NCBI GenBank assembly: GCA_903874895.1
Contig: CAIQUG010000058.1
Location: forward strand, 1 to 41,588
Reading direction: 5' to 3'
From: an uncultured Caulobacterales bacterium
GTDB lineage: Bacteria > Pseudomonadota > Alphaproteobacteria > Caulobacterales > Caulobacteraceae
DNA length: 41,588 nt
Shown: positions 1,287 through 5,023 of the stretch, one piece after another
Position numbering within the stretch: position 1 is the stretch's first letter
How the letters are laid out: the number at the start of each line of letters is the position of its first letter
Notes under the pieces: model-generated
Seen by the model: only the letters and a program-made list of their open reading frames with translations
Told to the model about the DNA's origin: nothing
Database searches by the model: none
Position numbers and translations under genes: made by a program

Positions 1287-2635
1287 GACGGGCACTGATC
1301 ATCGCGCAGCGGGAGTATCTCTCGTTCCTGCGCACCCCGGGCTTCTGGATCTCGCTGCTGGTGATGCCGATGGTCGGCCTTGTCAGCGGCCTCGCCCCCC
1401 AGATGATCGCCAAGACCGAACCGCCGCCGACGGTCGCGGTTCTGGATCTGACCGGCCTGGGCGCCGACGGGCCTGGTCCGTGGGTGGTCCACGCCCTCGC
1501 CCGAACGGCATCGGGGGGTGCCGATGCCGATTCCGCAACGGATGGCCGCAACCGCCGCGCCCGGGATGCCCGACGCAGCATCACCGTCGTCGCCACGCCC
1601 GCGGCCTTCGCTGGCGCCCGGACGCCGGCGGAGGCCGGGCAGGCGATCCGCGCCTACATGGCCGCGAAGACTCCGCTGAAGGATGGGCGCCCCCTGTCGG
1701 GTGCCGTAGTGATCCATGGGGATCGCGACCAGCTGCAGATGGACCTGTGGACCCCCCGGCCACAGGTGGCGGACTGGTCCGATGCCCTGGCGTCGCCCTT
1801 GAACGATTGGCTGCGACGGGCGCGTCTGGCCGCGGCCGGTGTCCCGCCGGGGGTGGCCGACGCCCTCAACCACCGCCTGACGGAGGTCCGGGACTTCTCC
1901 CCGCAGGCCGCCGCCGGACGGGTCTCCCTCGCGGACAAGGCCCCGCTGCTGGTGGCGGTCGGCCTGTCCTTCCTGCTCTGGGCCCTGGTGCTGACCGGTG
2001 CCGGCATCCTGCTGAACACGGTGATCGAGGAGAAATCCAACCGGGTGATCGAGGTGCTGCTGTCTTCCGCCTCGGTCACGGAGATCCTGGCCGGCAAGAT
2101 CCTCGGTGGGGCCGCCCTGTCCCTGACCACGATGAGCTTCTGGGGGGCGATCGCCTTCTGGCTGCTCAACCGTTCCGCCCCGGACATGCTGGGCGTCGTG
2201 GGGGCCGCCCTGACCGGCCACGGACTGGTCCTTTGGTTCGCAGCCTTCTTCATCGTCGGCTATCTGATGTACGCGTCGATCTTCGCGGCGATCGGCTCCT
2301 ATTGCGAGACCCCGCGGGAGGCCCAGACCCTGCTGGGGCCGGTGATGGTGCTGCTGACCGTGCCCATCGTCTTCCTCGGCGCCACGATCAGTGCGCCGGA
2401 GGCCCCCCTGCTCAAGATCCTCGTCTGGGTGCCGTTCTTCACACCGTTCCTCATGACCACCCGGGTGGCTGCGGGGGCACCCGTGCTGGAACTGGTCGCA
2501 GCGCTCGTGGAAATGGTGCTGATGGCGGCATTCGTGATGTGGCTGTCCGGGCGCGCCTTCCGCTCCGGGGCACTGGCAACGGAGAAGCTGGATCCCCGCC
2601 GGTTCCTCGCGTCCATGTTCCGGCGGGACAGCTGA
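1283..2635 (+). CDS. ABC-2 type permease, NatB-like
   Basis: The 450-residue membrane partner of the preceding ATPase. One N-terminal membrane helix (about residues 20-40) is followed by a periplasmic domain of about 180 residues. A bundle of hydrophobic helices then runs from about residue 220 to 425. The cytoplasmic stretch EEKSNRVIEVLLSSASVTEI just after the second helix is a hallmark of the NatB/YhaP ABC-2 family. The start overlaps the ATPase stop as ATGA. The gene is followed by spacer up to the rpsU terminator. It forms the membrane channel of the exporter; the substrate is unknown. Confidence 0.88.
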   Translation: MRRALIIAQREYLSFLRTPGFWISLLVMPMVGLVSGLAPQMIAKTEPPPTVAVLDLTGLGADGPGPWVVHALARTASGGADADSATDGRNRRARDARRSITVVATPAAFAGARTPAEAGQAIRAYMAAKTPLKDGRPLSGAVVIHGDRDQLQMDLWTPRPQVADWSDALASPLNDWLRRARLAAAGVPPGVADALNHRLTEVRDFSPQAAAGRVSLADKAPLLVAVGLSFLLWALVLTGAGILLNTVIEEKSNRVIEVLLSSASVTEILAGKILGGAALSLTTMSFWGAIAFWLLNRSAPDMLGVVGAALTGHGLVLWFAAFFIVGYLMYASIFAAIGSYCETPREAQTLLGPVMVLLTVPIVFLGATISAPEAPLLKILVWVPFFTPFLMTTRVAAGAPVLELVAALVEMVLMAAFVMWLSGRAFRSGALATEKLDPRRFLASMFRRDS

Positions 2636-2681
2636 GGCGCGTCAGGCCCCGGCACCCGGCGCTCAAGTCCCGGCCCAACAG

Positions 2682-2704
2682 AAAAAGGCCCCCGAACGGG
2701 AGCC
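2682..2704 (-). terminator. Rho-independent terminator of rpsU
   Basis: On the minus strand GGCTCCC, loop GTTC and GGGGGCC form a 7-pair stem with one G-T pair. A run of five T follows at once. It lies 30 bases after the rpsU stop, as expected for an intrinsic terminator. On the plus strand no T-run follows, so it is not a good terminator for the ABC permease gene. Confidence 0.8.
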
Positions 2705-2734
2705 CTGATCCGTGCAGTCTTGCGACGGCGAAAC

Positions 2735-2968
2735 CTACTTGGTCCGCTTCGGCGCCACGACGATGCCACCTTCGCGCTGGGCGCGCTTGCGGGCCAGCTT
2801 GCGGGCACGACGAACGGCCTCGGCCTTCTGGCGCGCACGCTTTTCGGAGGGCTTTTCGTAGTGGACGTGCCGCTTCATCTCGCGGAACGTACCCTCGCGC
2901 TGCATCTTCTTCTTCAGCGCCTTGAGGGCCTGGTCGACGTTATTGTCGCGCACAAAAATCTGAACGAT
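2735..2968 (-). CDS. rpsU: 30S ribosomal protein S21, probable AUC start
   Basis: Small basic ribosomal protein of the 30S platform, which helps 16S rRNA pair with mRNA during initiation. The product is 77 residues and its core reads [20 protein letters not shown], typical alphaproteobacterial S21. The family normally begins M-V-Q-I-F-V-R-D. Here V-Q-I-F-V-R-D is present in frame, but the codon at the Met position (2966-2968) is ATC. A strong AGGAGG lies 8 bases before that ATC. The first standard start in frame, GTG at 2951-2953, would cut five conserved residues and leave 23 bases to the AGGAGG. A stop (TAG) lies two codons upstream of the ATC. I therefore place the start at ATC. A terminator follows the gene. 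Confidence 0.85.
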
Positions 2969-2975
2969 GACTAGG

Positions 2976-2984
2976 CCCTCCTCT
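2976..2984 (-). promoter_or_regulatory. rpsU ribosome binding site that decides the ATC start
   Basis: On the minus strand the sequence reads AGAGGAGGG, an almost perfect anti-16S match. It is 8 bases from the ATC codon and 23 bases from the next possible start (GTG). The spacing strongly favours the ATC. The rest of 2985-3180 is the rpsU upstream region, and I see no gene in it. Confidence 0.65.
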
Positions 2985-3180
2985 GGACCCCCGTCCGCGC
3001 CACGATCCGTAGCCGCGCGTTCGGTTCTGGAAAAAGCATCCTACGCCCGGAAAGGAACTCTCCGTGCCTTGTGGGAGGGGGAAATAGCAGAGGCGAACGC
3101 GGCTGTCCACGGAGGAGTCGCACGCGGCCGGGCCTGCGTGCCATTTTCGCCGCCCATCAGGGCCGGGACCGGAGCCCCGG

Positions 3181-3936
3181 ATGGCGCCAGACGTCCGGAT
3201 GTCCTATCTTCCGGCCATGAGCTATCCGGACAATCACGATACGCCCTCAGGCGAAGACGCCGCCCCCGACTGGGCCGACGAGACCGAGGCCCGCCTGCTG
3301 GAGGCCGCCGTCCGCTGCGTGGCCGAGCACGGCCGCTGGGATGCCCGACTCGTGGAACGGGCCGCAAAAGAGGTCGGCCTGTCCCGGGAAGCGTGCGAAC
3401 TGCTTCTGCCCCATGGCCCCCGGGACCTGGCCGCTCTGCTGGCCCGGCGGCACGACGCGCTGACGGCCGCCCGGCTCGCCGCGATCGACCCGGCCGGCCT
3501 TCGCATCCGGGAGCGCATCACCACGGCCGTGCGGACCCGGATCGCCGTGGCCATGGAGGACGAGGCTGCGGTCCGGCGCTCGCTGGGCTTTCTGGCCCTT
3601 CCCGGAAACGCGCCCCTGGCCGGGCGACTGATGTGGGCGGCGGCGGACCAGTTGTGGCGCTGGGCCGGGGACACGGCCACCGACTTCAACCACTATTCGA
3701 AGCGGGCGATCCTCTCGACGGTGCTGGCCTCCACATTGGCGGTGCGCCTGGCCCGGGACGAGGCGGCGGCCGAGACCCATCTGGCGGCGCGGATCGAGGG
3801 CGTGATGGCCTTCGAGAAGGCCAAGGCCGGGGTGAAGCTGGATCCGGAGGGGACCGCGCGATCCGTGGCAGGCCTTCTGGCCCGGCTCCGCTTCGGACGG
3901 CCGGTCAGTCCTCCAGCGCCCCCGTCAGCCGGTTGA
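3181..3936 (+). CDS. COQ9 family protein (TetR-like fold)
   Basis: This 251-residue protein belongs to the COQ9 family, lipid-binding proteins with a TetR-like helical fold that assist hydroxylation in ubiquinone synthesis. Supporting sequence: an N-terminal helix-turn-helix-like part (LLEAAVRCVAEHGRWDARLVERAAKEVGLS), a central RIRERITTAVRTRI helix, and the COQ9 stretch WRWAGDTATDFNHYSKRAILS. The ATG at 3181 has a GGAG nearby; ATG at 3217 (MSYPDN) is an equally likely start and would give 239 residues. It is divergent from rpsU, and its last 32 bases overlap the end of purK on the other strand. The role in quinone synthesis is a family inference. Confidence 0.82.
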   Translation: MAPDVRMSYLPAMSYPDNHDTPSGEDAAPDWADETEARLLEAAVRCVAEHGRWDARLVERAAKEVGLSREACELLLPHGPRDLAALLARRHDALTAARLAAIDPAGLRIRERITTAVRTRIAVAMEDEAAVRRSLGFLALPGNAPLAGRLMWAAADQLWRWAGDTATDFNHYSKRAILSTVLASTLAVRLARDEAAAETHLAARIEGVMAFEKAKAGVKLDPEGTARSVAGLLARLRFGRPVSPPAPPSAG

Positions 3937-5023
3937 CGTGACCCATCTTGCGCCCCGGCCGGGCCCCTGACTTGCCGTAGAGCCATAGGCGCGCCGTCGG
4001 ATCGGCGGCATAGGTCGCCCAGGCATCCGCCTCCTCGCCCAGCAGATTGATCATCTCCGCCCGGGCAAAGGGTCGGGTCGGGCCGAGGGGCCAGCCCGCC
4101 ACGGCGCGGATGTGCTGTTCGAACTGATCGACCTCACAGGCGTCCAGGGTCCAGTGGCCGGTATTGTGGACCCGCGGTGCGATCTCGTTCACCAGCAGGC
4201 GACCGTCCGCCATCTCGAACAGCTCAACCCCCATCACCCCCACATAGTCCAGGCCGGTCAGCAGGCGTTCGGCGATCTGCAGCGCTGCCGCCGCGGTCTC
4301 GGCGCGGACCCGGGCCGGGGCGACGGAGCGACGGAGCACGCCGTTCTCGTGGGTATTCTCCGCCAGGGGATAGGCGGCGATCTCCCCGCCCCAGCTGCGG
4401 GCGGCAATGACTGACACCTCCCGGACGAAGTCCACCCGCCCCTCGAGGATGGCGGGGGCCGCACCGATCGCGGTGAAGGCGGCCTCCGCCTCCTGCGGGG
4501 ACCTGACCCAGGCCTGACCCTTGCCGTCGTAGCCTTCCCGGCGGGTCTTGAGCAGGGCGGGGGTGCCGATCCGGGTCAGGGCCTCGGCCAGATCCTCCAC
4601 CCGGTCGATGGCGGCAAACGGGGCGCAGTCGACACCGACGGACCCGAAGAAGGTCTTTTCCGCGATCCGGTCCTGAGCCGTGGCAAGGGCGAGCGGGCCG
4701 GGAGCCATCCGCACGCCGGCGGCCAGAAGGCGATCCACCACCCGGGCCGGCACGTTCTCGAATTCCACGGTCGCGACCTGGCAGCGGGCCGCGAACTCCG
4801 CCAGGGCCACGGGGTCGTCATAGGCGGCCACCAGGCTGGACGCCGCCACGCGGCTGGCGGGCGCGTCCTCCTCCGGCGTCAGAATGCAGGTGTCAAAGCC
4901 CAGCCGGGCCGCGGCGAGCGCCAGCATGCGGCCCAGCTGCCCGCCGCCGAGAATACCAATGGTCGAGGTCGGCGCCAGGGGAGCGAAGCCTGCGCCGGGG
5001 ATCAGGTCGGATGCGTGGGTCAA
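3905..5023 (-). CDS. purK: 5-(carboxyamino)imidazole ribonucleotide synthase
   Basis: PurK uses ATP and bicarbonate to carboxylate AIR to N5-CAIR in purine synthesis. The 372-residue protein has the N-terminal [20 protein letters not shown] nucleotide-binding turn (about residues 23-42). An ATP-grasp domain follows, with [21 protein letters not shown], and the metal-binding stretch [20 protein letters not shown] followed by NTGHWT. Length is normal for the family. Its ATG overlaps the purE stop as ATGA, so PurE and PurK are made together. The 3' end overlaps the convergent COQ9-like gene by 32 bases. Confidence 0.96.

Follow-up and report, generated by a model that had tools for sequence, protein, structure and literature searches.

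AUC is a very rare start codon, and the textbook example of a near-cognate start that is conserved in bacteria is that of infC, the gene for initiation factor IF3. Among genes for small-subunit proteins, rpsT of E. coli (bS20) begins with UUG, and Parsons is said to have found in 1988 that this start codon affects both the efficiency and the autoregulation of expression. According to a review (PMC4611024), AUG, GUG and UUG escape discrimination by IF3 and other triplets do not. For Caulobacter crescentus, 74.3% of the mapped starts are reported to be ATG, 0.7% CTG and 0.25% other near-cognates (PMC4117421); at such frequencies, it is unusual for a gene encoding a ribosomal protein to start with AUC or CUG. 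The rpsU gene has its own precedent for special initiation in Flavobacterium, where bS21 is described as autoregulating through a strong, extended Shine-Dalgarno (SD) sequence (PMC9976891). No description of a non-AUG rpsU start in Alphaproteobacteria was found in the titles and opening lines of abstracts of the literature matches listed.

The rpsU gene described here lies on the minus strand of the window, by which the whole stretch of DNA analysed (41,588 nt) is meant. The features of the locus are:

2735–2968, minus strand: rpsU, 30S ribosomal protein bS21, 77 residues (stop codon at 2737–2735)
2966–2968, minus strand: AUC, the probable start codon of rpsU, assigned by comparison
2977–2982, minus strand: AGGAGG, SD sequence of rpsU, with a spacer of 8 nt to the AUC
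2951–2953, minus strand: GTG, codon 6 and the first ATG/GTG/TTG in the rpsU frame, rejected as a conserved start
3041–3043, minus strand: in-frame stop codon TAG, 25 codons 5' of the AUC
3082–3109, minus strand: conserved promoter-like pair, TGGACA (3109–3104) and GCTATTT (3088–3082), from an alignment of AUC leaders of the family
2685–2706, minus strand: intrinsic-terminator-like hairpin 3' of rpsU (one in 2600–3300, against a mean of 0.5 in shuffled sequences)

The product matches two bS21 profiles above their curated cut-offs (TIGR00030, 69 bits with a cut-off of 28.95; PF01165, 70.9 bits with a cut-off of 27). As the original prediction had stated, the codons after the ATC at 2968–2966 read, in the same frame, V-Q-I-F-V-R-D and the remaining bS21 sequence. 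Residue 4 aligns with residue 4 of E. coli bS21, and the AUC therefore occupies the place of the E. coli Met1 codon. The spacing of the AGGAGG was also given correctly (it lies at 2982–2977 and ends 8 nt before the ATC), but the TAG said to lie two codons upstream (2973–2971) is out of frame; the in-frame TAG is at 3043–3041, 25 codons upstream. Between this stop and the AUC there is no ATG, GTG or TTG in the rpsU frame, and the codons directly before the ATC are CTA GTC. As expected of a gene whose near-cognate start is of the kind rejected by IF3, this rpsU is without a canonical in-frame start at its conserved N-terminus. The next standard start, the GTG at 2953–2951, would drop five residues, as had been predicted. 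An open reading frame listing limited to ATG, GTG and TTG does place the rpsU start at this codon 6, so that annotation on that basis trims five residues from bS21 here.

The gene is divergent from a COQ9-family open reading frame (3181–3936, plus strand), with which it has a short intergenic region in common (2969–3180). Other neighbours, identified by Pfam at 357–2635 and 3905–5023, are an ABC transporter ATPase and an ABC-2 permease (plus strand) and a PurK-like ATP-grasp gene (minus strand). A scan of 2500–3400 against Rfam returned two sub-threshold matches near the terminator. One of them, ctRNA_p42d at 2675–2709 on the minus strand (24.3 bits, gathering threshold 50), lies over the terminator-like hairpin and is probably just that hairpin.

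In the alignment of AUC leaders (29 leaders of the family, 12 of them inspected in print), the TGGACA/GCTAT pair lies about 140 and 120 nt upstream and is conserved across genera, and the stretch between the pair and the SD is not conserved. The pair would imply an rpsU leader of roughly 100 nt; a scan of 2600–3300 with the sigma-70 consensus found no site. A possible hairpin in which the SD region would be sequestered by codons 12–15 has a predicted energy of −20.9 kcal/mol in the window's genome, and 79% of cells are paired across 32 AUC loci, against 20–46% for slid versions. It was nevertheless rejected as a conserved element, being no better than synonymous-codon nulls (mean rank 0.62). 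The consensus fold of the 29 leaders consists of two small helices only, and the stretch 3076–2900 folds with z = −1.43.

The window comes from a draft assembly of 266 contigs, and the original prediction had named a sequencing error, with ATG or GTG as the true codon, as one observation that would overturn it. Against an error of sequencing or assembly stands the finding of ATC in all six genomes read of the genus, the window's own included, and, by a fixed pattern, in 37 of 390 genomes of the family, spread over 15 of its 22 genera. Among the carriers are genomes assembled into just one or two contigs (G016, G024). The error reading is already refuted by these other assemblies, and the chance that it applies is negligible.

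The aligned codon was then compared across 221 genomes of Caulobacterales, each counted once, in a sample that is not random; three second rpsU matches (G012 C54, G204 C5 and G658 C51, the last with ATC) were left out of the count. The codon is CTG in 105 genomes, ATC in 80, TTG in 13, GTG in 11, ATG in eight, and ATT and ATA in two each. In all 221 it is AUG or one base removed from it, at position 1 or 3, and U is always in the middle. A trade among AUC, CUG, UUG, GUG and AUG points to a start-codon position, since such exchanges are not what one would expect of an internal isoleucine codon. The prediction that rpsU begins at AUC thus finds strong support in the aligned codons of its relatives, and on this comparison the AUC may be taken as the start with high confidence; its position, and the class of codon found there, are conserved.

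The codons are distributed unevenly among the families. The window's own family (f1, 131 genomes) has ATC in 35, CTG in 81, GTG in 11 and TTG in four genomes, with ATC over-represented because 35 of the 37 known ATC genomes of this family were read and the others were only sampled. Family f2 has ATC (13), ATT (2) and ATA (2); f3, ATC (4) and CTG (19); f4, ATC (15) and ATG (8); and f5, ATC (13), CTG (5) and TTG (9). CTG is present at this position in Brevundimonas diminuta ATCC 11568, Brevundimonas alba DSM 4736 and Asticcacaulis aquaticus. It is also found in all four named Caulobacter loci read, which makes a regulatory role of the weak start testable in a model organism. The eight AUG genomes (loci L496, L497, L498, L504 and L507–L510) all come from two genera of family f4, g31 and g208, and have a divergent N-terminus, MVEIYVRQNN. 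If the five families are clades, the counts would call for a minimum of nine changes of codon, including one in which AUG was either gained or lost. Five changes are needed on a 30-genome tree (infC, rpsR and rpsP) without AUG genomes, 10 of whose 27 inner branches have good support. Two of the second rpsU copies, L252 (G012:C54) and L300 (G204:C5), start one codon later, with GTG or TTG followed by QVLVRD; the contigs that carry them are 3 and 15.6 kb long, and they may be contamination or a paralogue.

A later start, at the codon-6 GTG, would turn the conserved stretch before it into untranslated leader. This codon is indeed the first ATG, GTG or TTG in frame, but only 42 of the 80 ATC genomes have GTG as codon 6, the other 38 having GTC, GTT or GTA, and the later start is therefore not conserved. 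Codons 2–6 differ solely at third positions among the 29 AUC loci of the family, and the SD would sit 23 nt from the GTG; initiation there is very improbable.

A canonical start upstream was likewise rejected, there being none in the window's genome, and none is possible in the 30 loci where a non-canonical start is forced (an in-frame stop 2–59 codons upstream, no ATG, GTG or TTG from that stop to the start, and none within the gene until codon 15 or later). These 30 loci, 11 with ATC and 19 with CTG, were found among 182 ATC, CTG, ATT and ATA loci, a set that includes L494, a second rpsU match dropped from the count of 221, and nine loci from the wider class (in two of these, L142 and L156, the next codon is GTG). 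The stop lies two codons before the ATC in six loci (L245, L250, L454, L472, L474 and L476); in the last two of these, the first canonical codon to follow is codon 22. An ATG, GTG or TTG does occur within six codons upstream in 20 of the 80 ATC genomes, for example a TTG two codons before the ATC in G024 and the g2 genomes; there the non-canonical start is argued by homology, and an upstream start is possible on sequence alone.

Outside the order, 74 further alphaproteobacterial rpsU loci were read (69 from a class sample with matches in 186 of its 192 genomes, and five others; the class table is without L189, which was unmatched, and L421, L428 and L430, which are not of the class). The start lies one codon later in 62 of them (GTG in 40, TTG in 12, ATG in 10), five start with TTG or GTG at the same position as in Caulobacterales, and six with ATC and one with ATA have no adjacent canonical codon. 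In other classes of the phylum, ATG occupies the position in 12 of the 13 rpsU loci read and TTG in one (nine of 22 loci, including L421, were unread; L428 and L430 were read). By these alignments, non-AUG starts of rpsU are common in Alphaproteobacteria, and AUC and CUG are concentrated in Caulobacterales.

Other genes of the small subunit gave a different picture. The aligned start is ATG in 30 of 30 loci for each of rpsP, rpsR and rpsT, whereas infC has ATT, ATA or ATC in all 58 readable loci (30 of 30, and 28 of 28 readable among 29 further loci). In the window's own genome, the aligned start of infC (L305, G000:C261) is ATT (IRRPM...), preceded by GGAG. Many infC loci contain an in-frame ATG four codons later, so the infC start here also rests on homology. 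As judged from the aligned codons, rpsU is like infC and unlike rpsP, rpsR and rpsT, and a ribosomal protein gene in which AUG is mostly avoided throughout an order would form a second case beside infC.

The resemblance extends to the class of codon. Triplets subject to IF3 discrimination (AUC, CUG, AUU and AUA) make up 189 of the 221 rpsU starts in Caulobacterales, GUG and UUG together 24, and AUG eight, so that membership of this class is a tendency and not absolute. The AUG exceptions show the same of the weak-start rule as a whole, and the GUG and UUG genomes suggest that the requirement could be satisfied by any weak codon. By analogy, it is possible that rpsU is regulated like infC: IF3 on the 30S subunit would reject AUC and CUG, and most bS21 would be made at times when there is little IF3 for the number of 30S subunits, which would couple the supply of bS21 to the status of the ribosomes. 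The preponderance of the IF3-rejected class and the uniform AUU, AUA or AUC of infC (58 of 58) are what such coupling would lead one to expect, but the 24 GUG/UUG and eight AUG genomes speak against it. Furthermore, infC retains AUA or AUC in the clade with AUG rpsU (7 of 7 readable loci); the codons of the two genes do not co-vary, and a joint change of their starts was rejected as unsupported. IF3-coupled control of rpsU is, on balance, conceivable but rather unlikely.

The second component of the initiation region is the SD. A GGAG core within 16 nt of the start is found with all ATC (80/80), TTG (13/13), GTG (11/11), ATT (2/2) and ATA (2/2) genomes and with 100 of 105 CTG genomes, or 208 of 213 non-AUG genomes of the order, and in none of its eight AUG genomes; by this comparison the SD, too, is a conserved part of the locus. 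Outside Caulobacterales, four of 10 AUG rpsU loci keep GGAG, and a weak codon and a strong SD are thus not linked in general. Duplex energies with the anti-SD were calculated using RNAduplex and an assumed anti-SD sequence. Median values for rpsU were −9.1 (CTG), −9.5 (ATC), −9.5 (GTG) and −11.9 (TTG) kcal/mol, compared with −6.8 for AUG and −6.7 for both ATA and ATT (two loci each). The control genes gave medians of −6.2 (rpsP, 28 of 30 loci scored) and −7.8 kcal/mol (rpsR, 25 of 30); infC rows were left out, as 35 matches, stray ones included, had been returned for 30 loci. The ranges overlap, from −14.2 to −6.4 for AUC rpsU (79 loci) and from −8.7 to −4.3 for AUG rpsU, and rpsR reaches −12.6 with AUG.

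The separation within the order between non-AUG genomes with GGAG and AUG genomes without it bears on two further readings. In one, the weak codon would make initiation lean on SD pairing, which bS21 at the 30S platform would modulate, giving feedback of the kind published for Flavobacterium rpsU through its extended SD (PMC9976891). Three points speak against such feedback: E. coli bS21 is said to provide for SD pairing (PMC10931766), which would give the feedback the opposite sign; the median of −9.5 kcal/mol is weaker than the values below −13 kcal/mol for Bacteroidota with their extended anti-SD, though the two were computed differently; and GGAG is kept in four of the 10 AUG loci outside the order. 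We regard it as unlikely. In the other, and simplest, reading the weak codon lowers the rate of bS21 synthesis to a fixed set-point without regulation, and the SD compensates. Turnover among AUC, CUG, UUG and GUG with GGAG, and AUG without GGAG, is what would be expected within the order for a constant overall rate. A set-point alone, however, leaves the preference for the IF3-rejected class (189/221) unexplained, and there is overlap in energy between AUG rpsU (−8.7 to −4.3) and AUC rpsU (−14.2 to −6.4). We would give this account a little under an even chance.

The interpretation preferred here encompasses more than one of these possibilities. It is very probable that the AUC at 2968–2966 is the genuine initiation codon of rpsU, and likely that a weak start combined with a strong SD is kept by selection, limiting or regulating bS21. 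The initiator tRNA would read the AUC as formylmethionine, aided by the strong SD. Most Caulobacterales have rpsU on a weak non-AUG codon with a strong SD, the codon drifting among near-cognates with AUG rare. The likely purpose would be to slow the initiation of bS21 synthesis and render it responsive to the condition of the 30S subunit or its factors, thereby limiting or regulating how much bS21 is made. bS21 itself is located next to the anti-SD and has a part in initiation. Translation from the AUC and any regulation through it are inferred. A more speculative and doubtful extension is that start-codon fidelity serves as a sensor matching bS21 supply to the state of 30S and IF3. Caulobacterales and some other alphaproteobacterial families would then hold rpsU on IF3-discriminated codons over long evolutionary times and, within Caulobacterales, AUG would be found only where the GGAG core has been given up.

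Four known systems may be compared with this locus. The rpsU genes of other Alphaproteobacteria are the same gene with a mostly non-AUG start, but theirs is mostly a canonical GTG or TTG and the protein is one residue shorter. E. coli rpsT (bS20) is likewise a small-subunit protein gene whose start codon matters for expression, whereas rpsT in the relatives examined here has AUG (30/30 loci). Flavobacterium rpsU shares the gene, a strong SD and an initiation region unlike that of other ribosomal protein genes; from the published account, it has an exceptional SD among organisms that otherwise ignore the SD, while here the start codon is the odd element. A further parallel is infC, a gene of the translation apparatus with a conserved start of the IF3-discriminated class and with ATT in this same genome. 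The product of infC is itself the discriminating factor, allowing direct feedback, and that of rpsU is not; and infC has AUU, AUA or AUC in all 58 readable loci, whereas rpsU also uses CUG, UUG and GUG and, in one clade, AUG.
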